Shown: positions 1-30,807 of the stretch, piece after piece
How the letters are laid out: every line of letters begins with the position of its first letter
Position numbering within the stretch: the stretch's first letter is position 1
IMG/VR virus record: IMGVR_UViG_3300032278_000076
Coordinates: 1 to 30,832 of that record
Direction: 5' to 3' (one strand)
Source: a virus
Length of the DNA stretch: 30,832 bases
Position numbers and translations under genes: made by a program
Notes under the pieces: model-generated
Database searches by the model: none
Seen by the model: only the letters and a program-made list of their open reading frames with translations
Told to the model about the DNA's origin: nothing

Positions 1-3000
1 TGGCGTTATTACGGCTTTGCTTATTAGCTATCCAAAACTTGGTGACCCCGGAAGGACGACCTGATGGTCCTTTCGTGGCTGTCCGGTCCTTTAGCGCACG
101 GCGACCAGGCTCATCAAGGAAGATCTCAGGGGGTGGGGGTGAGTCAGGGGGTGGGGCAAACCCAATTATGGGTAGCTCCTCGCTGCGACCTGCTTCTGAA
201 GGTGGCGATGAGAGATCGGGTTGCCTCGAAGAAGTCTCAAGAGGCTCCAGATCGTAGAGATCCATCGGGCCAGCTTTGGGATCCCCATCAAGCCATTTGA
301 TGATTGGGGAGAACAGCTCCCGATCCTTCTCCATTGCATTTCTGAATGCCTGGAGAGAGTCATACCCTTCTTTCCGTGCAAACTCCTCCCCAAGACCTTT
401 GGCCTTTATCTTGGAGAACTTGACTCCCTGCTCCTTTAGTGTGATCTTGGCACGCCTACCCTTTGCTAACGTATAGACTCCAGGTCCCTTATAGAACCTA
501 TTTGAGTATTTGCGCGTCCTTATCGTCTGTGTCTTCTCTCCCTTCAGAACCTTATCGGCATGAACCGCGTTCATTGCAATCTTGCCTTTGGTCTCCCTGA
601 GGTCGAGGTCCTGGAGGCGTTGATGTCCAACTGGCTCGGTCGAGACGGTGCCGATATCAGGGGGAGTATGCTCAGACGTAGACAGGGGATCAGCAGCTGG
701 AGGCCCCTCCTTCTTTCTTAGTATTTGTGCATGCTCTCCAGGGGAAAGGCTCTGACCAGGTACATATGGCACTCCTGCGTCGACAGCATCCCATGCAGCC
801 TTAATCCTCTCTGGCTCCCTTTCAGCCTGTATCCACTCTACCTCCTCCCGCAGTTCTCTGATGGCCTTCCACCTCGCCTCGTCTGGTTTTTTCTTGTTCC
901 CCGCTACCTTTAAGTTCCTATTCAGGGTTTTTTTCCGACCCTCTCCACCAGGAGTCGTCTCATATAGGCGCGTCTTAAAAAGATCAGGTATCGCATTGAG
1001 TCTGGTTGAAATATCCTCAAAGCCTCCTTCAATAGCCGTCCCTCGCCCCTCTGCTGTCGTTTGTTCGGCACGCGGTCTCACCCCCGTAGGGATATATTTG
1101 TCCCCTGATGACGTGTCTGGAGGAGTGCCCCCGAGTTTTATGATCGGCTCATCTGCCGGAGGTGTCTGAGGTGGCTTACCGGGTTCTTCCCCCAGCCCCA
1201 GGTCGATGCGTGGTAGATCAGGTGTCTGAGGTGTCTGAGCTGCCTGAGCTGCCTGTCTTTGGCCCGCCTGCCACTCCAAAACCTGGTTCAGGACCGACTC
1301 TTCGTAGGCCTTGCGATGAAGCCCTTCCTTAACTCGGGCACTGTCTATAGCAAATCGTCCTTCCTTTGTAAGGAATTGGTAGTATCGTACCCCAGAAGTT
1401 TTTTGCTTCCTTTGCGCTGTCTCAAGTAAACGCTTGTTAGCCGCCCTGGCCGCTGGGTCCGGGTTATTCGTGATCACCTGCTCTGTGACATCTGACATCT
1501 CCCACTCAGCGTCGGGGTCATTAGCCTGGAGCGTGCGTAGTTTTTGTCCAGCATTATGTTCTTTGTGGAATCCCCACTTGGCCTCCTCTTTCCCCGTTCC
1601 TGGTGGCCGCCCCTTCTGTCTTCCCGGTTCCCGCGCTGCTCTTTCCCCTGTCGGCCTGAGCCCGCTAACAGCCGCAGCATCCTTGAACTTCTGGATCTGC
1701 TCCATCAAGGGGGAGAGCCCGAGGTCTTGACTCGGATCTACTAACGGATCAAGCTTGGCGGCAGTCCGTGTGATGTAGGCATCCCAGGTTTCAAACGCAG
1801 ACTTAGGGTCCAGGATGTGATCAAAGAGTTTGTTAGAGCCTTCCTTCCCCATGAAACGGTTGGGGTTAAAGCCCATAGTCTTTATGTAAGCAAGGAGAGA
1901 TCCTTCGACTTGTATCTCTAATGACCCAATCTTTTCTTTTTTATCATCTGACCACCGTTTATCCGGTCTCTTGCCAGCCCACCTAGGACGAGGGAACATG
2001 CTTGTGCTCGTCTTCCCAATAAACCGTTCCAGCCTTGCTTTTGCGTCAGGACTGGTATCCTCCTCCAACCGCCGCAGGATAACGGTTTTTAACTGACGTA
2101 CCCTCTCTTTGAATTCGTCCTCAAAGAACTTCTTTTGAGTATCGATCTCGCTGTTCTTATACGGTCCCCGTGAAGCATTAGCCGGCCTGCGCTGCTGAAA
2201 CTTTGCCGGCGCTTCCAGCGCAAGTTTCGCATTCTTTATCGCATTGAGATGAGCATGTATCTTCTTGTACACCTCAACAGATGTGGGCAACCTTCCTGCA
2301 CGAAGGGCGTCATTAAAAACTTCCCTCTGATTGACACGCCATCGGTAGGGTTCACCTGCGGCGTCGGCGGCATAGAGACCTAGAGGCTTATACTGAAGAC
2401 TCTTCTCGTCAATGTCCGAGGTATGAGCAGCAACAAAGGCCCTTACGGTCGGAAAGAAGTCCTGTAGGTCAGACAGCTCTTCATGTGGAGGAGGCACCTC
2501 AATGTTCTCGATTGCCTTCTCTACCTGTCGCTGCATTCCTGTCAGCTGTATTCCGACCGCACTCTCTTCAGGAAGAGGCTGATCAGGAGAAGTGTCCGGA
2601 GCAGCTTTCCGATCAAGAGGATCGGGAGGAGGGGAAAGAGAAGCATACTTCTTCTGTTCAGCTTCCCGGCGAAGAGCCAGCTTCTGAAGATAGCGATCCC
2701 GGCCAGCCCAACGAGGTTCCCGCGTGGCTCCAGGTTGAGGCACCATCTCCCCTGTCACGGGGTCAACTTCAAAGGAGCCTGGCTTCCATGGGCTTCCTCT
2801 ATGTTGACGCCGCGCACGCATCCGTATGAGTTCTTCCTCTCCCCAGGTGCGTTGTGTCGGCCCCGTCCGTCCCCCAGTCTGAGGATCAATAGAGCCTCGT
2901 GGTCGGGTTTCCTGCTGCCTGAGCTTCTGCTTATAACGAGGACCCCTCCTCTTCCACAGCGCCATCGGGACCGCCCCACCCAAAAGCGCGCCAACTCCCA

Positions 3001-3613
3001 TAGCAGGAACTACCGTTTGCCAGGGGGGTAATATCTCGCTCCCTCGCTTGCCCTCCTCAAAACGGCGGCCTCCCTCCTCCATCGTTATCCCGAGGCCTCC
3101 CTGCCCTGCACCCTTTACGGCCAGCTGTCCTGCAACACCCTTCAGGCCCTTGACCCCTCGTGCGATGGGTGGAGGCAACGCACTCCAAGCTCCTGCGCCA
3201 AGAGCTTGCCACTTGCTGGGGTCTTCCACCCCCCGCATCTTCTGTGCCTTCAAACTTGAAAGGTATCCGGCCACACCGCCCGCGATTGGTCCGGTGATAG
3301 GCGCAAAGGGACCACCCAGGGCTGCACCACCCCAGTAGGCAGCTGCCGGAAGAACTGTCTCTAGCGCTGCCGAGCCAAGAACGTTCCTTCCTTCTGGGTC
3401 AGGAGGAGGTGCTCCTCCTTCAACAGAGGGAGAGGGAGCCTCCCTATTCTGTGATGCGATCAGGAGGTTCAGACCATCCTGCGGAGGAGGCTGTAATTCA
3501 GGCCTTACAGACTCCTGCTGTGATTCAGGCTGCTCAGGCCTACGACCATTTCTAGCACGAAGTCGCCTTAAGAAATCCTCCTGCTCTTGGGCGTATCTGT
3601 CTTCTTGTGCCAT
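1..3613 (-). CDS. Giant internal virion / DNA-ejection protein with ASCH-like domain (3' end outside window)
   Basis: I translated this frame codon by codon from ATG 3613 to base 1. It stays open for 1204 residues and leaves the window, so its C-terminus is missing. An AGGA six bases before the ATG and a 12-base gap after the preceding stop support the start. Residues 85-120 and 200-220 are Gly/Ala-rich hydrophobic segments that could insert in membranes. Much of the rest is charged, with Pro-rich linkers (330-350, 785-835, 1150-1165). Residues about 1010-1095 resemble an ASCH domain (YqfB/activating-signal-cointegrator superfamily): a VLKGEKTQTIR motif at 1022-1032, then strands, then FARKEGYDSLQAF near 1078-1090. 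ASCH domains bind RNA or modified nucleosides, and some are amidohydrolases. Its place last in the tail block, after a transglycosylase protein, matches T7 gp16, so ejection into the host is inferred. The 600-residue middle is unrecognised. Confidence 0.85.
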   Translation of the reverse strand, partial: MAQEDRYAQEQEDFLRRLRARNGRRPEQPESQQESVRPELQPPPQDGLNLLIASQNREAPSPSVEGGAPPPDPEGRNVLGSAALETVLPAAAYWGGAALGGPFAPITGPIAGGVAGYLSSLKAQKMRGVEDPSKWQALGAGAWSALPPPIARGVKGLKGVAGQLAVKGAGQGGLGITMEEGGRRFEEGKRGSEILPPWQTVVPAMGVGALLGGAVPMALWKRRGPRYKQKLRQQETRPRGSIDPQTGGRTGPTQRTWGEEELIRMRARRQHRGSPWKPGSFEVDPVTGEMVPQPGATREPRWAGRDRYLQKLALRREAEQKKYASLSPPPDPLDRKAAPDTSPDQPLPEESAVGIQLTGMQRQVEKAIENIEVPPPHEELSDLQDFFPTVRAFVAAHTSDIDEKSLQYKPLGLYAADAAGEPYRWRVNQREVFNDALRAGRLPTSVEVYKKIHAHLNAIKNAKLALEAPAKFQQRRPANASRGPYKNSEIDTQKKFFEDEFKERVRQLKTVILRRLEEDTSPDAKARLERFIGKTSTSMFPRPRWAGKRPDKRWSDDKKEKIGSLEIQVEGSLLAYIKTMGFNPNRFMGKEGSNKLFDHILDPKSAFETWDAYITRTAAKLDPLVDPSQDLGLSPLMEQIQKFKDAAAVSGLRPTGERAAREPGRQKGRPPGTGKEEAKWGFHKEHNAGQKLRTLQANDPDAEWEMSDVTEQVITNNPDPAARAANKRLLETAQRKQKTSGVRYYQFLTKEGRFAIDSARVKEGLHRKAYEESVLNQVLEWQAGQRQAAQAAQTPQTPDLPRIDLGLGEEPGKPPQTPPADEPIIKLGGTPPDTSSGDKYIPTGVRPRAEQTTAEGRGTAIEGGFEDISTRLNAIPDLFKTRLYETTPGGEGRKKTLNRNLKVAGNKKKPDEARWKAIRELREEVEWIQAEREPERIKAAWDAVDAGVPYVPGQSLSPGEHAQILRKKEGPPAADPLSTSEHTPPDIGTVSTEPVGHQRLQDLDLRETKGKIAMNAVHADKVLKGEKTQTIRTRKYSNRFYKGPGVYTLAKGRRAKITLKEQGVKFSKIKAKGLGEEFARKEGYDSLQAFRNAMEKDRELFSPIIKWLDGDPKAGPMDLYDLEPLETSSRQPDLSSPPSEAGRSEELPIIGFAPPPDSPPPPEIFLDEPGRRALKDRTATKGPSGRPSGVTKFWIANKQSRNNA
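1220..1255. repeat. Short 9-bp tandem repeats in the giant protein gene
   Basis: Four 9-base units lie head to tail: aggtgtctg twice, then agctgcctg twice. In the minus-strand frame they encode two Gln-Ala-Ala units followed by two Gln-Thr-Pro units (residues about 787-798), inside a low-complexity linker. A related PQTPP stretch follows about 20 residues later. It looks like a slippage-prone linker, not a separate element. Confidence 0.7.
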
Positions 3614-3625
3614 GCTCTATCCTAT

Positions 3626-6253
3626 CTACGTATTCATCAGCATCGAATCTAGATTAAGAGGAGTGCTAACCCCAGGTGTACCAAGATTGAAGCTGAGGTT
3701 ACGGCGTGAGGGAGCAGCAAGTGATTCCAGTTTCTCTATATCAAGCATTTCAGTCTGCACCAATTGAAGGACCCCCTCCGGGCTCAGCCATTCTTCAAAT
3801 GTCCCATCAAGGAGACCCTCGTCTATTCCTCTTTTAATCAATGAGTTGAGATACTCCGCCACTTCTGAGTTCTCCATGAGGCTCCTAACCTGCTCCTCTG
3901 AAGGAGGAGGGGAACCTCCTGAAGGAGAACCCCCCCGGTTGACATTTGCTTCAGAGCGACTTCCTACCATGGGAAGAGGCGTGTCACTGAATCCCTGCAT
4001 GCTTCTGACATAATTGGCTAGTGTAGTAACCCTTTTACGTATATTTTCATCGCGCATCCAGCCGAAACCCTCCTCCGACATAGGGTTGGTGTTCCAATTC
4101 GGGCGAGGAGCCTGACCAAGGAAGAGATTCCTTATCCCATCCTTCTCATTCGGGTATCTCTGCTCCAGCCAAGGATCAAAGACACCCAAGCTCGCGTTTT
4201 GCCGAAGGGTATCCCACTGCGTAATTGCTTCGTCTGCAATCCGTGCGCTTGTATAGAGGTTCCGAGGAGTGTAGGTCACCCCATCGGTATCCTGCAGAGG
4301 CTCCCTCTCCATGTCAGCGAACTGCATGCCGAGCATCGTTTCGTTCATCTGCTCATCGGCACCTTCAAGCCTCTCCCCGGCACTTCCTATTATAGAGTCA
4401 GCCACCGCTTTCATCTGGGCTTGTTGAGGCTGTTGATTTTCCGTTGTTACCGGTGACTCCACGCCAGGTATGCTGGCCCCCGGCGGGAGTGGCGAATAAG
4501 ATTGAGTATCTGAATGCCACATAACGAGGCTGCCGTCACCCAGTCGCATTGGCCTTCCAGCCCTTCGCGCCCGGTTGCGCGACATCACGGTATCTAGTAG
4601 CTGCCACCCAGGAGGAATGGTAGTTGGATCAAAGTTATGGTCCAGACGGCGGCCATTTATATCCGTGTAGAAGACCCCCGACTTCGTCTCATCCCCAGGA
4701 TCACCCCAAATCTCACCTTTCTCAGTGTCAATATGTGACCCTTGACCCCCTACAGGGATCCCTGCCATAGCAGATAGGATGGAGTATGGGACGGATGGAA
4801 ACTGATCAGCCAGCGTCTTGAGTGAACTAGCCGTCAATCTTAGCCGCTCTGTCTGCAGCTCTGCCTGCAGCCCTGCCTGTTCCTCAAAGGGGACGATGAT
4901 AGAGGAACCAGAAGGCCTCCCCATGAAACGCTTCACCTTACTCACATAGTTTTGTGTCTCTGGAAATGGAACATCCGCGCCATATCTGTCTACTCTTCCA
5001 GGACCAGCATTATAGGCAGCAAGGACCTTATTCCAGTCACCATACTTATCAAACAGCCGACTTAAATACTTAACGCCCCCTAGAATGTTCTCCCGTATGT
5101 CAAAAGGATCGTCGACTCCCATATCCCGCGCCGTGTCCGGCATCAACTGCATCAAGCCTTGGGCACCTGCTGGGGATACCGCATTTGGATCACCTGAGGA
5201 CTCAGCCTGAATAACAGCCCGGATCATGTCAATGGGTACATCTGGATACTGAGCTGCTGCTTGTGACGCAGCAACCTGAATCTCTGGGGAGAGTGGTGGG
5301 CCCAGTGGCACGCTAGGTCGACTGGAAGGGACGAGGCTTTCGGGAGGCTCCTCACCTTGAGGCAAGCCAGGAACCGCATGCAGACGGTGCTCCCGTACAG
5401 GGCCTGTCTCTGCAAGTCCATCCTGTTGATAGCGCAAGGAATCTGGACCAACCCAGCCTGTGGGCTCTGAAGTAGTGATATGAGGAGAGAGTAGCCCGGA
5501 CCCAGGAACGATATTTGCTAAGCTAGTTCCCCTAAACTGATGGGGCTGAAAGTCATAGGGAGATTGGAGGGCACCCGGATCAGGCTGCCGTCTTGGATAA
5601 GGCTGCCGTGACCGAGCAGACTGTTCCAAGGATAAAGGGGGACTGCCAGAGCCAGATTGTGTTACTGTCCGCGCGTTCTGAAGATGTACATTTGGACCTG
5701 GGTGGGGCGGCTCCGTAAGCTGCATGCCGGGTTGCGGCCCGGTGATCTGTGGAGGTGGATTGATACCTCGCATAACTTGTGCAGCATTTCCCGCCGCATC
5801 CGCTATCCTCTGTTCAGCTTTGGTTCTTTGAGTAGGAGTCTCTGGTGCCACACCATTCGGTTCTGGAGGTGTTACTGGAAGACCAAGACTGTTGGCTTCG
5901 TTTACTACTCTGTCCATACCCCCCGGCTGAGAATTCATCTCAATCTCTCCTGAGATAAGCTTCCTCAGGAAGTTGAGTTTGGGCTCTTCAAAATTTAGAC
6001 TCCTGACCTTCTTCTTTGGTGACTCTGCCAGAGAGTAATAATCTCCTATCGCCTCTGTAAGGTATTGTGGATCATAAGGGCCATAAGGGTTGTCCTGCAT
6101 CGACTGAATGATGTGGCCCAGGTTCTCCCTCTTTATCGCGAAGTCCTTCTCTGCCCTCTCACGATTCTCCTTTATGGTCTGTTGAACATGCGTATCCACA
6201 CCTTCAAGCAGCCCCCCAAGGAGCCCCTTCATCGAACTACCTGACATAGCCAT
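3626..6253 (-). CDS. Internal virion protein with SLT lytic transglycosylase domain
   Basis: An 875-residue protein. Residues about 325-446 form a Slt70-type lytic transglycosylase domain. The catalytic Glu is E351 in QAESSGDPNAVS, followed by the GAQGLMQLMP motif, a GGVKYLSRL helix, AAYNAGPGRV at 412-421, and TQNYVSKV. Such domains cleave the MurNAc-GlcNAc bond of peptidoglycan with formation of 1,6-anhydroMurNAc. In podoviruses they open the cell wall locally while DNA is ejected. Residues 1-110 are charged and helical, 125-320 are Pro/Gln-rich and probably disordered, and the C-terminal 400 residues are unrecognised. AAGGA six bases before the ATG supports the start. It lies between the gp14-like gene and the giant gene. 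In T7 the transglycosylase is at the N-terminus of gp16, so here the domain sits one gene earlier and mid-protein. A separate endolysin is unlikely given the length and context. Confidence 0.92.
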   Translation of the reverse strand: MAMSGSSMKGLLGGLLEGVDTHVQQTIKENRERAEKDFAIKRENLGHIIQSMQDNPYGPYDPQYLTEAIGDYYSLAESPKKKVRSLNFEEPKLNFLRKLISGEIEMNSQPGGMDRVVNEANSLGLPVTPPEPNGVAPETPTQRTKAEQRIADAAGNAAQVMRGINPPPQITGPQPGMQLTEPPHPGPNVHLQNARTVTQSGSGSPPLSLEQSARSRQPYPRRQPDPGALQSPYDFQPHQFRGTSLANIVPGSGLLSPHITTSEPTGWVGPDSLRYQQDGLAETGPVREHRLHAVPGLPQGEEPPESLVPSSRPSVPLGPPLSPEIQVAASQAAAQYPDVPIDMIRAVIQAESSGDPNAVSPAGAQGLMQLMPDTARDMGVDDPFDIRENILGGVKYLSRLFDKYGDWNKVLAAYNAGPGRVDRYGADVPFPETQNYVSKVKRFMGRPSGSSIIVPFEEQAGLQAELQTERLRLTASSLKTLADQFPSVPYSILSAMAGIPVGGQGSHIDTEKGEIWGDPGDETKSGVFYTDINGRRLDHNFDPTTIPPGWQLLDTVMSRNRARRAGRPMRLGDGSLVMWHSDTQSYSPLPPGASIPGVESPVTTENQQPQQAQMKAVADSIIGSAGERLEGADEQMNETMLGMQFADMEREPLQDTDGVTYTPRNLYTSARIADEAITQWDTLRQNASLGVFDPWLEQRYPNEKDGIRNLFLGQAPRPNWNTNPMSEEGFGWMRDENIRKRVTTLANYVRSMQGFSDTPLPMVGSRSEANVNRGGSPSGGSPPPSEEQVRSLMENSEVAEYLNSLIKRGIDEGLLDGTFEEWLSPEGVLQLVQTEMLDIEKLESLAAPSRRNLSFNLGTPGVSTPLNLDSMLMNT

Positions 6254-6284: not shown

Positions 6285-7151
6285 TTACCAGCCCTGCCGT
6301 CCGTCCCACCCATCAGTGCGACGATCACGGCGGGTGAGCGAGGGATATCCACGGACGTTGGGATTGAGACCAAACATCTGATAGCTAGGTATCGGCCTTT
6401 GCTGAAGTGTTTGTCGAGGTTCGCGTGACCCTGGATCACCTCCGGTCAGCCCGATGATCTGCCGGCCTACCTCAGACCCACCCCCTGTGAAGTAGGCTGC
6501 TGCAATGCGTGCCCCCCATCTCCCGATATTCTGAAAGAATGATTGGTTCGTATCTTCAGCCGCTCGCTCATCCCTGACCGCTTGATTGGTCAAGTAGCCT
6601 AGTTGGTTCCACTGATTCCCGGCGATGTTCGCAAAGTTAGCCGCAGACTGTTGCCCTTCTAATCCCAGTGACGCTAGTGCAGAAGCAGCAGCCCCAGGAG
6701 CCCCCGCGAACATGGTATTGATGTCGCTCATCATTCGACGCTTATTCTCTTCCTTCGCAATCAGGGCCGCAGGGTTCCGTCCATAGTTGCCACCCCCCGT
6801 CATACTAGAGCCAACCTCCCTAATCTTTGTGACGGCTGGACTGAGGGCTTGCTGCATTGATGCCCCACCCTTCAGTAAGTCATTGTAGAAGCCTAGTGCT
6901 TTCCCATACGCAGGGTTTGCCATGTTGAAGATGTTACGCCCAGCATCCCCTGCAGCCTGAGCAAGATTGCTAGACCCGCCTACTACACCACGCCGTGCCT
7001 CCCGATATCCTTCGGATCCTCTGAGCTTATTGGGATTGAACGGATCTCTCCTCCCAGTTACGCTCGATCCATAACCTGCACGGTTTTGGGCTGAGGGTTT
7101 ATTCCGACTTCCATGAGCCTTATTCGAGTGTGGATCACTCTGACTTAGCAT
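6285..7151 (-). CDS. Internal core protein, T7 gp14-like by position and composition
   Basis: A 288-residue protein if started at ATG 7151, overlapping the GNAT gene by 17 bases. A longer reading from GTG 7181 has no visible ribosome binding site, and even the chosen start has only a weak AGGA 12 bases upstream. The sequence is Gly/Ala/Asn/Gln-rich, with an Arg/Asn-rich N-terminus, an Ala-rich helical middle containing FAGAPGAAASALASLGL and IAGNQWNQLG, and an Arg-rich C-terminus. There are no Cys residues and no clear enzyme motif. Small Ala/Gly/Gln-rich proteins in this position (after the nozzle block, before the transglycosylase protein) are usually internal core or ejection proteins like T7 gp14, which forms the outer-membrane part of the ejection channel. 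Function is assigned from context and composition only. Confidence 0.72.
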   Translation of the reverse strand: MLSQSDPHSNKAHGSRNKPSAQNRAGYGSSVTGRRDPFNPNKLRGSEGYREARRGVVGGSSNLAQAAGDAGRNIFNMANPAYGKALGFYNDLLKGGASMQQALSPAVTKIREVGSSMTGGGNYGRNPAALIAKEENKRRMMSDINTMFAGAPGAAASALASLGLEGQQSAANFANIAGNQWNQLGYLTNQAVRDERAAEDTNQSFFQNIGRWGARIAAAYFTGGGSEVGRQIIGLTGGDPGSREPRQTLQQRPIPSYQMFGLNPNVRGYPSLTRRDRRTDGWDGRQGW

Positions 7152-7506
7152 GATATACGTAGGTCCTATCCGGTAATTCACGGAACCCGAGGCGGGAGAG
7201 ATAGCCCGCTACAGGAGCCTGCTCCGTGAGACAGAATGCCTTTACAATGCTGCAACTGTCAAGAAACTGACGTATCCGCCGCCACAACCTCCGTGGCACC
7301 AGACCCCCTCGATGATCTTCCCGAATCCAGACTGGATCTATATGGTAGGCTTGCAACACCATCCAGAACGCGATGATGTCACCCTTGTGGTCTTCTGCTA
7401 CGAAGATGACCCCCTCCCCTGAGTATGGCAGACTCTTGAGCCACTTATCTGGGAGGTCCAACAGACGGGGCCACTCCTCCTCCGGTAGTTGTCGGACAGT
7501 ACTCAT
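7135..7506 (-). CDS. GNAT-like protein, possible T7 gp13 counterpart
   Basis: A 123-residue protein. Its ATG overlaps the stop of the glycosidase-like gene in an ATGA junction, and AGGGA lies seven bases upstream. The pattern fits a compact GNAT acetyltransferase fold: the GVIFVAEDHKGDIIAFWMV strand pair, then VWIREDHRGG followed by a basic helix (LVPRRLWRRIRQFL) where the acetyl-CoA pyrophosphate loop normally lies, then AGYLSRLGFREL near the end, which resembles the terminal 'YxxxGF' GNAT motif. Related small GNAT-like proteins occur in the T7 gp13 position, just before the gp14-type protein, where they are virion components of unclear catalytic status. That position matches here. Whether it acetylates anything cannot be seen. 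Confidence 0.72.
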   Translation of the reverse strand: MSTVRQLPEEEWPRLLDLPDKWLKSLPYSGEGVIFVAEDHKGDIIAFWMVLQAYHIDPVWIREDHRGGLVPRRLWRRIRQFLDSCSIVKAFCLTEQAPVAGYLSRLGFRELPDRTYVYHAKSE

Positions 7507-9228: not shown

Positions 9229-9716
9229 CAGTCTTTCCTCCCTGTCAGCATTTGATGAAGCAGTCGTCGTCGTCGCCGCCACATATCATTGAGATAGCGC
9301 CGCGACCCTCGACGGAAAGGCGCACTCGCGCTCCATGCCCCCCGACCCAGTCCTCGCACCGCCCGAGCTATGGGACGACCTGCAACACCCAGTATTGGAC
9401 CAAGGGACGCCTTGATGGCAACATCACGCAGGTTACGGGGGACGGTCCAGTCAGCAGCTGTCTGTGCCCCACGCAGGACTCCATACATCACCCCCGGAGG
9501 CTGGCCTGGTGGACCAAAGTGTGTTGGGTTGAAATCGTGTTCAACAGATGTCTGTATCCCAAGGGGATCACCTGACAACCAGGACTCTGACTTGGGGCGT
9601 CGACTGGGTGGGGAGCTAAGGCGTTCTTTTGAACGGCGGGCTCCTGAGGCTCGTCGCCGAGCCGCATGGGCATCACGAGAGAGTTCCCCATAGGGCACAA
9701 TTTCTTGGTTCGCCAT
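9228..9716 (-). CDS. Arg-rich hypothetical virion protein
   Basis: A 162-residue protein whose ATG overlaps the nozzle gene stop (TAATG). AGGAAGG lies about 12 bases upstream. The N-terminal 50 residues are rich in Arg, Ser and Pro, a Gly/Pro-rich middle follows (FGPPGQPPGVMYG), and the C-terminus has Ala-rich segments and a YLNDMWRRRRRLL stretch. No enzyme motif or membrane segment is evident. Position between the nozzle and the glycosidase-like protein suggests a minor tail or core component. It is one of several unusually basic proteins in this region. No family is recognised. Confidence 0.7.
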   Translation of the reverse strand: MANQEIVPYGELSRDAHAARRRASGARRSKERLSSPPSRRPKSESWLSGDPLGIQTSVEHDFNPTHFGPPGQPPGVMYGVLRGAQTAADWTVPRNLRDVAIKASLGPILGVAGRPIARAVRGLGRGAWSASAPFRRGSRRYLNDMWRRRRRLLHQMLTGRKD

Positions 9717-12700
9717 TACTGCGACAGCCTTCCTTGCGTCGAAGATTTGTAGGGAAGTGATGCCCCCGTCGTCGCATCATGTAAGCTTCGGGTCAGATCC
9801 AGGTTGTCATCCCCGAAGGGTTGCACCCCACGAATCTCGCCCCCCCAGTCCATTATCTTCAGCATTGATTCTGGTCGGTAGAGCCAGAAGTCTGCCGTGC
9901 TCAGGAAGAGGAACTTGAACTGCACTCCCTTGGCCGCCTCAAAGGTGAGGTGGTACTGTCGTTTCACCCCGTCCGTATCCGGGAGGTAATAGGTCTTCTC
10001 CCGTGACGTGCCATCCTCACTCATAATCGTGACCGACATCGTCATGGTCTCTGTGCTACGGTAGGTGATCCAACCTTCGACCAAGGCCTTCCAGCCAGGG
10101 GTACCCAGGGTCAGTTCTTGTGTCTCCCACCGGTCGAGTCCGAGGGGCTCCTCATCAAAGATTAGTGAGGCACTATAGAGCCGACCAGGGTTGTTATCCG
10201 TGGCCCGAATCCGCACGACTCGTCCACGCACCTGAGCGAATGCTTTATGCACGACGCGCCGGTCTGGTGTGTTGACCGTCAGCGTAGCAGCCGTCACCCC
10301 ATCTATCTCCACGATCACTGTCTTGGCAAACCCGAATGTGTCACACTCCAGCTTGACGCCCTTCACATATTTATCGGTGTGCGTCCCTCCGATAGTCCAG
10401 TTCTGATTCCAATTCGTTGTGGCGGTTGGCTCTTGCTCCACCAACCATTTGTGTGAGTACAGAAGGCATGGATTGGCGTCTACGGCAACGAAGCGGTAGA
10501 CATGCCCCCGTCCCGGCCCAAAGGAGAGGTGCACCACGTTTCGCCCACTTGCGTACACACTGAACTTCTCATCACCTGTGGCAGGGTTGGTCAGCCTCGT
10601 TTCATCCACGAAGATGTTGAAGATCTTTGCCACGCCGAGGGTATTGATGACCAGATCCAGTCCGGTATAGTAACTGTCGGCCTGTATCTCAAAATGACTG
10701 TCAACCTGGGCTATCCGTGGAGGTTCCTGTTGTGCAATCCAACTGCACTCATACAGGGTCCAGGGTACGTCATCTGTTGACCGAAGCCGGATGCGGTCTA
10801 CCTGGACAGCAGGCCATGAGAAGAACCGCCGCTGACGAGTGTTTGTCCCATCAGTATCTATCGTGACCGTTTGTGCTATTTGTGTGTCGTCATCGTGCCC
10901 GATCCCACCTATATACTCAACGATAATGTCCTTGGAGGCTCCCCCTGTGTCACACTCAATCATGACACCGGTCACATACTTCTCTTCCGCAGCCCCCAGA
11001 TCATCCCAGCGGGTGGCGCGATTCTTGGTCTCCTCAGGTTCAGGGCTGACGCTCACACCTAGCTGCTGAACACGAGGCTGACTCCCGGCTGAGGTCCAGC
11101 TGAGGTCCAGTGCGATGTTCTGCCCTCGTCCAGGAACATTGTCGAAGGGATCTATCGTATATTGTGTGCGGTCACTTCCCGTGTTGATCTGGTTAACAGG
11201 CTTCTCGATTGTCCAATTGTCGAGGAATGCTTGTACTGTGATCTCCGCGCCATCTCGGTTCATGTCAACGAAGACATCACCAAAGAGCTTCTTCTCTCGG
11301 CCCCGTCCCACATCCCAGGCTCCCGTTCGGAGCTGCGCTGAGATGGGCCAGTTATCATCTCCCCTGATGGGGTTGCCTCCTACGTCAAGCTTCTCATGTG
11401 TGTAGACAAACCCACTGCCCTTCGATCCCAGGAGCATGGTGCTCTTGTCGCGATGCTGCGTGGTATCCGCATACATCGTCGCAAGATACCCAGAGGATTG
11501 TGCAGCCGAGAACTGATACCACTTCCATCGATTGCTCAGGGAATCCCAGATCAGGTGGTTGGTCTCCCCACCCTTGTCCCGATATTGGAACCAGAGTTCC
11601 GTTCCCCATACTTCCAGGCGGATATCTTGGGGGTCATTCCAATCAATCCGCCGATACACTGTGTTTACAGAGTCGCGCTCGCTGAAGATGCCCCCATCAT
11701 CCTCGTCACCAATAGGAGCACTGAGCAACTGGGCCTCTCCGCCAGTGGTTCGCCAGACCCCATCCCGGTTGACAAAGAAGATTCCTGAGGAGCCCACCGC
11801 CACCCCCATATGCGTGAAGAGCCCCTTCATGCAGGCTGAGGGCGTGGCCGTAACTGTGCCATCCCCTGAGAGGTTGGGGTAGACCCAGTACATGCGCTCC
11901 CGAGAGAAGACGAAGACCTGCCCCCCGAAGAACCCTCCATTTATCAGTTCTTCTGAGGGGGAACAGATTTCCAGCGAATTGTAGGGACTCCAGTGGTCAG
12001 GTGCCCCTGGATTGCTCCAGTAGAGATGCCCCGGTCGATACCGGTCTCCACAGCCGAAGAGGGTATCCTGCACTGGTCCCCACAGGGCCTTCAAAGGGAC
12101 CGCGAACTTGATATCCCCTTTATGATCGACTGTCGTGATGGGTTGCGCGTTTGTCGCAGGGATCGTATCTGCGAGGGTAATCTGTGCATCCGTCTTAAAG
12201 TCCTCAAGGGACTCCCCATCCGCCCCGTTCTTCCCGATGAAATACCAGTGGTTCCCCAGGCTCCCACCCCGCCGGTAGAACTTCTGCCGGATCGCGGCGT
12301 TTGCACTCCCACCTCCAAGACCATTATCCCCGTGTTGGCTGGGGTTGATCACCACGCTTCGACGGTTAGGGAAGACGCCATAGGGATCAGCTTCGGCCAG
12401 CACACCAGATCCGTTGGACTCTGCGCCCGTATCTTTATCGAAGTGTGTATACCGATAGTCGTATCCGGCAGATCCCGGTGCAGTGGTGTCGGGTCCTGCC
12501 CCACCTGTGAGATACAACTGCTGAAAGTAGACTTTTGGGCGGTCGGGCAACTGTATGCCCGCTTTCACGCCCAAGTAGAGGGCCACCCCAGTGATGTGAC
12601 TCCATGATGGCTCGTAATCCTCCGTGCCAGAGCCCAGCCGCCGGAAGTCGCCGCGACGGAGTGGATTCTCAGGTGTGCCAAACTCCACCCATTCATGCTG

Positions 12701-14173
12701 TCCCGCTCCACCCTCTACTGGAAGTGCCTTCTTATTCGTCTTTGCCTTGTGGTCCCTCGCTGACCGTGTGGGGATATATGGGATGGTATCCCCCGTCTCC
12801 TCATCAATGTGGAATCCAGTGTCATTCTGAGTTACTGGCTGTGGGTCTTGGTCTCGGTCTCTCTCCGCAAGATCGTCCTCATCCTCCTGGCTGTCTGCAG
12901 TATCCTCCGCTGTATCTTTGGCGGTCTTGTCGCCTGTATAGAAGTCTGTAAGATCACCAGGGCTGATTGCCTTGACGTAGGCATCTCTTGATCCCCTCTT
13001 GCCCGACTGCGCGTTACCTGGGAGCAATGTCCCATTCTTGACGGATCTTCCAACTTCATCACCCACTGGGTCGTTATCCCAATCTAGTGGATGGTCTATG
13101 AGGAGATAGACTCTGATCTCTGTAATATGAGAAGGATCCTCCATCTTCATCCAGAAGTGGACCTGATCATCGTCCGTTGCATCCCTCACATGTGGGTCAG
13201 TGGTCCCTGTTCCACCTGTCTGTGTCACCTTTGTAAAGTCAACATGAGGAGTTATCCGACGAATAGCCCAGACGTAGTACGCCTTTCCTGTCTGATTGTC
13301 TCCCTGGAGCGATGCTCTAAGACTGACATGCTGTCCTTTGTTCGTTGAATCATTAAGGTGAGTCTTGACTATCCCGTCTGCGACTCCCTCGCTGCTCTTC
13401 CCATACCACTGTTCGTGGCCCGTAGGGTCTCCGCGAGGGGGCCCATCAAGAGGCTGATCATGATCAGGGTGGCCGGGCTCATCGAGATGAGCTGTCTTTT
13501 CTATCTCTGCATTGATAGGGGGGACAAATAGAAGATCTGCCCGACCTTCCCGCCCGAAGCGCACCGTGTTATCTGAGGGCACATCCTCATAGATGCTCTC
13601 GTGCCCCAAGATGAGTCGCTCCCCCGCAGCATCCCTGGGGAAGGGGAGCCCAATCTCTCGCACATCCCCACTCGTAGATGCCTTCACCATCTTGGTCGAT
13701 TCATTCGCATTAGAATCGGCAATGAATGCCCAGGCCTGCCCACTCAGGGTTGGACGGTAGGGCACCATGACGAGCGGAGACCCTGAGAAATACCCCGCCT
13801 TGATCTCAGTGGTATCCTCCGTGGAACCTGCGGTCTGTGCGAAGGTTGCCTTATACAGGCTGTTATCTATGCCAAAGAGCCGATTGATATAGCCTGTCGC
13901 GAATGGATCGCGTAGTGACAGAATCGTATGCACTCTGCCAGGGGAAGATCCTGAGGCTTGAGCAATCTTCATGGTCCCTGAACGGGTGGATAATCCCCCC
14001 TCCTGCGTCCAGGTCAGGTTCTTCATGATGGCGAGTTCAGACGTCTCTAGGGCATCAATGGTCTTCCTCAGATTGAGCCCTGTCGCCCCCGGACGGAGTG
14101 TAGGTGTCGAGAAGGGTTGTGTGCTGTCTGAGGCCGATACCGGACGTGCCCCTATAGCTTTCGGGATAGGCAT
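9716..14173 (-). CDS. Tail nozzle protein (T7 gp12 / P22 gp10 type) with extra C-terminal repeats
   Basis: A 1485-residue protein. ATG 14173 is preferred over the TTG at 14191 because GGAGG lies ten bases upstream of the ATG. Near the N-terminus is the nozzle signature of an Asn-containing strand followed by EGGLSTRSGT (about residues 57-66). In the middle are propeller-like strands such as LFGCGDRYRPGHLYWSNPG, VFVFSRERMYWVYP, GIFFVNRDGVWR and HLIWDSLSNRWKWYQF, as in podovirus nozzle proteins that form the distal tail tube. Acidic insertions (430-480) and a C-terminal array of four related beta-domains (about 1056-1440) make it much longer than T7 gp12 (about 800 residues) or P22 gp10 (about 470). 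It lies directly after an adaptor gene, as expected. The role is inferred from these patterns and gene order. Confidence 0.83.
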   Translation of the reverse strand: MPIPKAIGARPVSASDSTQPFSTPTLRPGATGLNLRKTIDALETSELAIMKNLTWTQEGGLSTRSGTMKIAQASGSSPGRVHTILSLRDPFATGYINRLFGIDNSLYKATFAQTAGSTEDTTEIKAGYFSGSPLVMVPYRPTLSGQAWAFIADSNANESTKMVKASTSGDVREIGLPFPRDAAGERLILGHESIYEDVPSDNTVRFGREGRADLLFVPPINAEIEKTAHLDEPGHPDHDQPLDGPPRGDPTGHEQWYGKSSEGVADGIVKTHLNDSTNKGQHVSLRASLQGDNQTGKAYYVWAIRRITPHVDFTKVTQTGGTGTTDPHVRDATDDDQVHFWMKMEDPSHITEIRVYLLIDHPLDWDNDPVGDEVGRSVKNGTLLPGNAQSGKRGSRDAYVKAISPGDLTDFYTGDKTAKDTAEDTADSQEDEDDLAERDRDQDPQPVTQNDTGFHIDEETGDTIPYIPTRSARDHKAKTNKKALPVEGGAGQHEWVEFGTPENPLRRGDFRRLGSGTEDYEPSWSHITGVALYLGVKAGIQLPDRPKVYFQQLYLTGGAGPDTTAPGSAGYDYRYTHFDKDTGAESNGSGVLAEADPYGVFPNRRSVVINPSQHGDNGLGGGSANAAIRQKFYRRGGSLGNHWYFIGKNGADGESLEDFKTDAQITLADTIPATNAQPITTVDHKGDIKFAVPLKALWGPVQDTLFGCGDRYRPGHLYWSNPGAPDHWSPYNSLEICSPSEELINGGFFGGQVFVFSRERMYWVYPNLSGDGTVTATPSACMKGLFTHMGVAVGSSGIFFVNRDGVWRTTGGEAQLLSAPIGDEDDGGIFSERDSVNTVYRRIDWNDPQDIRLEVWGTELWFQYRDKGGETNHLIWDSLSNRWKWYQFSAAQSSGYLATMYADTTQHRDKSTMLLGSKGSGFVYTHEKLDVGGNPIRGDDNWPISAQLRTGAWDVGRGREKKLFGDVFVDMNRDGAEITVQAFLDNWTIEKPVNQINTGSDRTQYTIDPFDNVPGRGQNIALDLSWTSAGSQPRVQQLGVSVSPEPEETKNRATRWDDLGAAEEKYVTGVMIECDTGGASKDIIVEYIGGIGHDDDTQIAQTVTIDTDGTNTRQRRFFSWPAVQVDRIRLRSTDDVPWTLYECSWIAQQEPPRIAQVDSHFEIQADSYYTGLDLVINTLGVAKIFNIFVDETRLTNPATGDEKFSVYASGRNVVHLSFGPGRGHVYRFVAVDANPCLLYSHKWLVEQEPTATTNWNQNWTIGGTHTDKYVKGVKLECDTFGFAKTVIVEIDGVTAATLTVNTPDRRVVHKAFAQVRGRVVRIRATDNNPGRLYSASLIFDEEPLGLDRWETQELTLGTPGWKALVEGWITYRSTETMTMSVTIMSEDGTSREKTYYLPDTDGVKRQYHLTFEAAKGVQFKFLFLSTADFWLYRPESMLKIMDWGGEIRGVQPFGDDNLDLTRSLHDATTGASLPYKSSTQGRLSQ
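9845..11008 (-). repeat. Four degenerate ~95-residue beta-domain repeats in the nozzle protein
   Basis: Protein-level repeats at residues about 1056-1151, 1152-1248, 1249-1343 and 1344-1440. Each has the order: a strand ending in a small-residue turn (GVMIECDTGG, GLDLVINTLG, GVKLECDTFG), a short 'I.V..DG' strand, a 'dgt..r' turn, an Arg- or Val-rich strand (RIRLRSTD, VYRFVAVD, VVRIRATD), then 'LY' followed by a strand. Copies 1-3 end in QQEP, EQEP and DEEP; copy 4 ends FWLYRPES. The DNA copies have diverged. Confidence 0.7.
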
Positions 14174-14174
14174 A

Positions 14175-14819
14175 TCAGATGAAGCCTCCAATCATTGACC
14201 GAGCGGCTCGGATACCCTCTTGAAAGCGAGCCTCACAGTAGGCCGCTCGCTGTGGGTCATGGATCCGCCCAACCTTTCCGAGCATATCCGCCATAATCCC
14301 ATACTTGACAGCGGGGATGAATTCCTCAGGTACCAGGAATACCGATCCCCCACCTGAGCCGTCCATGGTGGGAGCAATCGGCACATAGGTGATCTGGAAA
14401 TGCCCTGTGTTCGTAGGGATTGGCGCGACATGAATCGTGAGTGTCGGGGTGTCAGCGTCCGTGTATACCTGTGGTTTGGTTGCGGTGCCTGTAGGCCACG
14501 TAGATAGGGCCAAGTCCAGTTCCCGGTGATCAACACGGGGGAGTTCTGTCCAGGTACCGTCATTATCCACCCAGACAAGGCGGGTGGTTACCGCCCAATC
14601 TGAGGGCAGCGTCTGGGAGATTGTCCCGCTCTTGGTAATGAGCGCCCGCCCGAACAGCACCGGGGCCTCTTTCAGGAACTGCTGCTGCCGTTGGTTGGCA
14701 TACCCCACCACTTCTGCCACGGTCCAGAGCCCAGTTGTCCATTCAGCCCCCAAGTTAGGGGGCTCCAGCAGGTGGTACTGGATCTCTTCCAGGATCGCGT
14801 TGTCAGCAATAAGGGCCAT
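14175..14819 (-). CDS. Head-to-tail adaptor-like protein (third of three)
   Basis: A 214-residue protein with AAAGGA four bases before the ATG. The layout is an N-terminal helix bundle (ILEEIQYHLLEPP, VAEVVGYANQRQQQFL), a 'LPSDW' strand region leading to VWVDNDGTWTELPRVD, a beta-rich middle (LTIHVAPIP, FQITYVPI), and a C-terminal helix pair with EEFIPAVKYGIMADMLGKVGRIHDPQRAAYCEARF. This resembles the P22 gp4 / T7 gp11 adaptor class, which joins the portal ring to the nozzle. It sits directly upstream of the nozzle gene, the same neighbourhood as T7 gp11. Two other proteins in the window share the same layout. Assignment is by pattern and position. Confidence 0.68.
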   Translation of the reverse strand: MALIADNAILEEIQYHLLEPPNLGAEWTTGLWTVAEVVGYANQRQQQFLKEAPVLFGRALITKSGTISQTLPSDWAVTTRLVWVDNDGTWTELPRVDHRELDLALSTWPTGTATKPQVYTDADTPTLTIHVAPIPTNTGHFQITYVPIAPTMDGSGGGSVFLVPEEFIPAVKYGIMADMLGKVGRIHDPQRAAYCEARFQEGIRAARSMIGGFI

Positions 14820-29938: not shown

Positions 29939-29945
29939 CTCCTTT
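29939..29945 (-). promoter_or_regulatory. Ribosome binding site deciding the protease start
   Basis: Minus-strand AAAGGAG overlaps the terminase stop codon and ends five bases before GTG 29933. It selects the GTG that opens a classic signal peptide. Confidence 0.75.
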
Positions 29946-30807
29946 AGTTAATCGCCTCCTCATCCCACTGGTCCATCATCTCCTGATACGACACAGCCGT
30001 GTTCTGCCATGTGGGCTTTTGGGAGGCTGTTGCCTCTTCAGCCTCCTCTAGTTTGCCTGCAGCTTGCAAGCGCTTTCGCTCCGCAGATGTATCAATCCCT
30101 GCTAGCCATTCATTGTCATGTGCTGCCCAATACGCCATCAGCATGGCCATCACGCGGTCGTCATGCCGTCCCGAAATTGCCTGCGCCTTCGACATATAGA
30201 GATCCCCCTGGAAGTCTTCTAACTCATCCAGCAGGAACTCGGAATGGATCATCAGGTCATCATTCACCAGGGCATGATGTCCCCTGGCAATGAGCTTCGG
30301 GCGTGTCGAGGGCGTCGTCCACCAACCCAGGCGAGAGGTCTGGAGGTTCTTGGTCTTATCATAGATCTTCCAGATGAAGTGATTCCCATATGCCATCCGG
30401 CTCCGCAGGTCAAACAAACAGGAGTCCCCGAACTCCCCGTTGCACTCCACGATAACCATGGCCTCACCCCCCGCGCCATCCCCGTAGAGCCGCCCCACCA
30501 AGGCCACGACCGGAGCCAGATCGTGCGGGCCATGGAAGTCACTGGCAAACTCCGCCACCTGCGCGTCAGGCCGTCTCTTGTCCCCCACACGCAGCACCTG
30601 AATCACCGACCGATCTGCACCCTTTCCCCCAGCCGGGTCCACTCCCAGGACATATTCCGACTCCGGTTCCGGGTCTTCAAAGACCAGTAGCCGCCCGTTC
30701 CAGTAGTTCAGGTCGAACTCCTTTGGCTCAGGCAGTCCCTTGAACCCCCACCCCGATGGCACTCGGTCAAGAAAGGCGTTACGCATTGATCTTCGGGAGA
30801 TCATCAC
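29944..30807 (-). CDS. Terminase large subunit, nuclease domain as a separate ORF
   Basis: A 287-residue frame bounded upstream by an in-frame TAA directly before GTG 30807; ATG 30804 and ATG 30786 are alternative starts, and AAGGTGG lies nine bases before the GTG. The sequence is the RNase H-like nuclease domain of a large terminase: D57 in YVLGVDPAGG, E121 in VIVECNGEFG, and D216/D217 in SGRHDDRVMAMLMAYW, which coordinate the two metal ions that cut concatemeric DNA. The lead-in PEPKEFDLNYWNGRLLVFEDP is usual just before this domain. The ATPase half, with Walker motifs, is absent and would have to lie upstream. A natural two-gene terminase, recoding, or a sequence frameshift are all possible. 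Confidence 0.85.
   Translation of the reverse strand: MMISRRSMRNAFLDRVPSGWGFKGLPEPKEFDLNYWNGRLLVFEDPEPESEYVLGVDPAGGKGADRSVIQVLRVGDKRRPDAQVAEFASDFHGPHDLAPVVALVGRLYGDGAGGEAMVIVECNGEFGDSCLFDLRSRMAYGNHFIWKIYDKTKNLQTSRLGWWTTPSTRPKLIARGHHALVNDDLMIHSEFLLDELEDFQGDLYMSKAQAISGRHDDRVMAMLMAYWAAHDNEWLAGIDTSAERKRLQAAGKLEEAEEATASQKPTWQNTAVSYQEMMDQWDEEAIN

Follow-up and report, generated by a model that had tools for sequence, protein, structure and literature searches.

A giant late protein of a Tunturi_1-like soil podovirus contains an ASCH domain and is likely an ejected effector

The window analysed here comprises a complete IMG/VR virus record (30,832 bases). At its beginning lies a giant open frame, P0001 (2–3613, minus strand), which starts with ATG and continues for 1204 codons, uninterrupted by a stop, to the edge of the record and beyond. 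The encoded protein has at least 1204 residues, and its true C-terminus lies outside the record, since the gene is truncated by the contig end; with this correction, the unbroken minus-strand frame of at least 1204 residues described in an earlier sequence-only reading is confirmed. The ATG of P0001 lies 12 nt past the stop of the neighbouring lytic transglycosylase (SLT) gene, and the codon-position G+C of the two genes is similar. A single membrane-like hydrophobic stretch (residues 200–221; 2951–3016, minus strand) is located in a Gly/Ala-rich N-terminal region. Searches of viral contigs, of phages and of the related records found no close relative of P0001, and no PHROG resembles the protein. 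The ASCH family PF04266 is the sole Pfam family recognised in a Pfam search of the at least 1204 residues (C-terminus missing), as the best match in the rest of the protein, DUF1266 (E 0.02), is under its cut-off.

The recognised late genes, all on the strand of P0001, encode a terminase part, a portal, a major capsid protein, SU10-type adaptors, a 1491-residue tail-type protein, a GNAT protein and the SLT protein. The 1491-residue virion/tail protein (9716–14191, minus strand) was used as the anchor for finding relatives and comparing gene order, and a search with it gave nine loci in related viral records, the closest isolate being the Acidobacteriota podovirus Tunturi_1, a Tunturiibacter phage; when genomes were scanned with the same protein for a host or prophage, there was no match. 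The window virus is a soil podovirus of the Tunturi_1-like lineage, with P0001 at the end of its late operon. The GNAT acetyltransferase-like protein (7135–7506, minus strand) is encoded at the same place in two related records, G004 and G006, and in Tunturi_1 (gp34), and this conserved gene stands within the virion operon. It is followed by a 298-residue late protein (6285–7181, minus strand), the positional equivalent of a 223-residue protein of G006 with which it shares weak similarity (E 0.001), and by an 875-residue late protein (3626–6253, minus strand), which lies directly upstream of P0001 and carries the SLT domain in its middle, at residues 330–436 (window about 4946–5266). P0001 is thus encoded with late virion genes beside a peptidoglycan hydrolase gene, as are phage polyvalent proteins. 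The N-terminal 145 residues of the 875-residue protein weakly match a separate gene of the relatives (hhalign 14%, E 0.002), which suggests that the SLT domain may move between neighbouring late genes. At the other end of the window, the large terminase is divided between two neighbouring genes. The upstream one, with about 452 codons, is read in the contig L002, which exactly matches the end of the window, and the other encodes the 287-residue nuclease-like part (29944–30807). The same split occurs in G004 and G006 (422–430 plus 284–289 residues), while Tunturi_1 has one gene of 2172 nt.

The ASCH domain of P0001 covers residues about 1010–1112 (278–586, minus strand), as located by PF04266, a viral ASCH profile and an AF2 model searched with Foldseek. 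In the whole protein, PF04266 matches residues 1015–1096 with 19.2 bits (E 0.0021), just below the cut-off of 21.2, and exceeds this cut-off both in the isolated 131-residue segment (24.1 bits, E 6e-5) and in a six-frame search of the record (23.9 bits, E 1.4e-6). A second profile was built, with the window excluded, from 30 small viral ASCH proteins encoded at viral loci that had been fetched by a DNA pattern for G-KTQTIR. It matched a single place in the window, the ASCH segment (E 1.2e-7), and also matched the YqfB positive control. As these loci were picked by the octapeptide, the rest of the segment was tested by shuffles. Among 1000 shuffles that preserved the octapeptide, none reached the 34.0 bits of the real segment (maximum 24.9), and with the octapeptide masked none of 1000 reached its 13.7 bits (maximum 10.4). 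The masked test was needed because G-KTQTIR is also present in unrelated phage proteins, including a near-identical family of 305- to 314-residue ORFs, and the octapeptide alone was thus rejected as proof of an ASCH domain. When five more viral ASCH proteins were added (35 in total), hhalign aligned residues 1015–1113, including the C-terminal Trp, with a probability of 96.7% (E 4e-10), as compared to 96.6% for the YqfB positive control. The tblastn search of phages and plasmids with the segment gave no match, and the ASCH alignment, scanned against viral contigs and genome contigs, yielded none that tblastn confirmed. Judged by its sequence, P0001 contains a genuine ASCH domain, significant by four routes and controlled by shuffles, and the profile searches, both with PF04266 and with the viral proteins, bear out the ASCH-like domain which the sequence-only reading had placed at residues about 1010–1095.

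Both motifs named in that reading are located as it described. The first, GEKTQTIR (residues 1025–1032; 518–541, minus strand), contains K1027, T1030 and R1032, equivalent to K21, T24 and R26 of E. coli YqfB, and its DNA motif is found a single time in the window and not at all in shuffles. The second, FARKEGYDSLQAF (residues 1078–1090; 344–382, minus strand), contains E1082, equivalent to E74 of YqfB, together with A1079 and G1083, which are invariant across 31 aligned sequences. The GxKTxTIR motif and the second A--[DE]G motif stand at the correct spacing in P0001, and every invariant alignment column is retained. YqfB is inactivated by mutation of Lys21, Thr24 or Arg26, which are essential, and Glu74 raises its turnover 100- to 1000-fold, while Asp27, His70 and Tyr89 are also invariant in the YqfB clade (PMC6972931). 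In the alignment, Asp27 corresponds to T1033 and His70 to F1078 of P0001, and no counterpart of Tyr89 was found. By these residues, the ASCH domain of P0001 keeps the chemical core of YqfB and is placed outside the YqfB clade, as Asp27 and His70 are replaced and a Tyr89 equivalent was not identified. The C-terminal strand Trp (W1107) is also kept. Identity to the sampled ASCH proteins is just 18–31%, and the retention of the invariant residues and W1107 despite this divergence suggests that the domain may be under purifying selection.

Single-sequence AF2 prediction of the segment gave a pLDDT of 40, and its Foldseek matches were noise. With the 31-sequence alignment, which itself includes ASCH proteins, the model reached a pLDDT of 57 (moderate confidence) with an ASCH-like order of elements. 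The top five PDB matches of this model in Foldseek, all with E of at least 0.18, were two each for YqfB (one of them with bound ac4C) and PH0355 and one for TTHA0113, all of them ASCH-type proteins, and 5y6c (Zymomonas mobilis ZmASCH) was weakly present among the matches. As the alignment contains ASCH proteins, the AF2/Foldseek result is not independent of it and is support, not proof, for a PUA-like beta-barrel (ASCH) fold.

The other viral ASCH proteins sampled (about 35) are small single-domain ORFs, none of them fused to a large protein as the domain of P0001 is. Two loci with open frames of more than 500 residues, L058 and L078, were considered as second fusions and set aside, as in both an in-frame Met coincides with the start of the ASCH domain. 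The domain in P0001 ends close to where the stand-alone phage proteins end, and its sequence match is to a short phage ASCH class which resembles YqfB.

The gene order after the tail protein in G004, G006 and Tunturi_1 (small proteins, GNAT, a small protein and two larger proteins ending the late module) matches the window, and the last slot, that of P0001, contains proteins of 469 (Tunturi_1), 634 (G006), 642 (G004), 663 (G014), 1290 (G017) and 2513 (G015) residues, as well as a protein of more than 2200 residues in G013, read from two overlapping contig ends (L040 2–5062 and L039 15119–16801). The SLT domain of G017 is in the protein preceding the slot, while in G016 no gene follows that of the SLT protein. 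The 1290-residue slot protein of G017 (L038 4420–8289) matches PHROG 873 (E 2.5e-7) and is ART-PolyVal-like at 22.7 bits (E 2e-4), which is below the cut-off of 31.2; it contains the motif HGSPHDFDRFDLSKLGTGEGAQAFGHGLYFAE, which is typical of ART-PolyVal. In the slot protein of G013, a Prok-JAB domain scores 33.7 bits against a cut-off of 25 and is possibly inactive, as its HxH motif reads HSQ rather than HSH, and that of G014 contains a DUF7178 domain. Similarity among the slot proteins was detected only for the G004/G006 pair and the C-termini of G013 and G015 (E 6e-33), and phmmer, blastp and hhalign detected no homology between P0001 and the slot proteins of the relatives. Effector-type domains are exchanged in this terminal slot among the relatives, and the polyvalent-protein literature (PMC5512222) describes just such a terminal late gene, which is exchanged rapidly and carries domains of effector type.

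On the basis of gene position and analogy, P0001 is likely an ejected effector. The sequence-only reading had called it ejection-type, and its position directly after the SLT gene, as the last late gene and in a slot with polyvalent-effector-type domains in relatives, supports this. The full reading, which we hold to be moderately probable, is that P0001 is an ejected early effector of polyvalent type, whose C-terminal ASCH domain would act in the host on RNA or modified cytidine. The protein would be made late, packaged together with the SLT protein, and threaded into the host ahead of or along with the DNA; packaging, ejection and catalysis are all inferred. In the host cytoplasm, the ASCH domain would bind, and probably chemically act on, RNA or an N4-acylated cytidine nucleoside or nucleotide, in the service of counter-defence or host takeover. 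An activity on tRNA, acetylcytidine or host RNA is speculative, and is suggested by the conserved residues. Weighing against the full reading are that a single domain is recognised in P0001, that no homology to the slot proteins of relatives was detected, that 11 related records yielded no ASCH domain, and that Asp27 and His70 are replaced.

Alternatively, P0001 may be an internal virion or core protein, the ASCH domain of which passively binds packaged (perhaps modified) DNA or RNA inside the particle. PUA, ASCH and EVE domains mainly bind modified bases or RNA (PMC7641849), and the gene sits in the structural module adjoining the SLT gene. This is nevertheless rather unlikely, as none of the four catalytic residues (Lys, Thr, Arg and Glu) is lost, and only the window, of 12 records (the window and 11 related ones, several of which are fragments), has an ASCH domain, which is thus unlike a general assembly part. 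It is distinctly doubtful that the domain is an RNase specific for single strands that cleaves host RNA upon entry: such activity has been shown for ZmASCH (PMC5615036), which was weakly matched by the model, but the predicted fold matches YqfB better, and the short phage class to which the sequence matches is itself YqfB-like. A more specific form of the effector reading, in which the domain would be a virion-delivered nucleoside or RNA deacylase, removing the N4-acyl groups of cytidine from host tRNA or from a defence signal of nucleotide type in the first moments of infection, is regarded as highly improbable. Least probable is that a stand-alone phage ASCH gene was inserted by accident into a late gene that evolves fast, and that the domain has no selected role. 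The occurrence of the fusion in one virus only among those sampled and the similar domain ends speak for this, but the frame is unbroken, and W1107 and every invariant motif residue are kept at 18–31% identity to the sampled ASCH proteins.

If P0001 is an ejected effector, as is preferred here, it would represent a new weapon type within the known class of injected phage proteins, for ASCH, a small domain that handles RNA or modified bases, is normally a stand-alone protein and here forms part of a giant one, which probably enters the bacterium by injection with the viral DNA. Phage ASCH domains are widespread, and the sampled viral ones are small, free and without a known target; P0001 gives a testable context for their role. 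The location of an ASCH domain in a giant late protein, next to a peptidoglycan hydrolase and in a slot filled by ADP-ribosyltransferase-like and peptidase-like domains in relatives, would link ASCH to the arsenal of injected effectors. The slot is also a handle for discovery, as the same position across the podovirus lineage may be mined for new effectors. If the deacylase reading is true, P0001 would be, to our knowledge, the first injected epitranscriptome eraser known.

Among known systems, the stand-alone phage ASCH proteins (PF04266), especially the short class (L050, L061, L101, L105 and L118), share GxKTQTIR, A--[DE]G[FY] and domain length with P0001, but they are single-domain proteins of about 98–175 residues, whereas the domain of P0001 sits at residue 1010 of at least 1204. 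E. coli YqfB, an N4-acetylcytidine amidohydrolase (1te7, 9kyf and 9kyh), is the top Foldseek match and has the four equivalent residues (Lys21, Thr24, Arg26 and Glu74), but it is 23% identical, differs from P0001 at Asp27 and His70, has in Tyr89 a residue for which no equivalent was identified in P0001, and is a small free enzyme, which P0001 is not. The hypothetical protein gp37 of Tunturi_1 occupies the position of P0001, following the tail protein, GNAT, gp35 and gp36 (annotated as a lytic tail protein), but is 2.5 times shorter, without ASCH and without detectable similarity to P0001. T7 gp16 and other podovirus core or ejection proteins resemble P0001 in size, in being encoded by the last core-type gene and in adjoining a transglycosylase function. 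The 'T7 gp16 position' assigned by the sequence-only reading is therefore apt in that P0001 is large, last and next to a transglycosylase, but is only approximate, as the SLT domain that defines gp16 and stands within that protein in T7 is found here in the upstream 875-residue protein; P0001 also lacks PHROG similarity. The same reading had mentioned ASCH domains among phage polyvalent proteins, but the founding review (Iyer et al. 2017, PMC5512222) does not bear this out, as ASCH is absent from its text; the proteins described there have two or more disparate domains, in contrast to the one recognised in P0001. P0001 is nonetheless like them in being a giant late-module protein beside a lysozyme-type gene, and ART-PolyVal-like and JAB-like domains occupy its slot in relatives.
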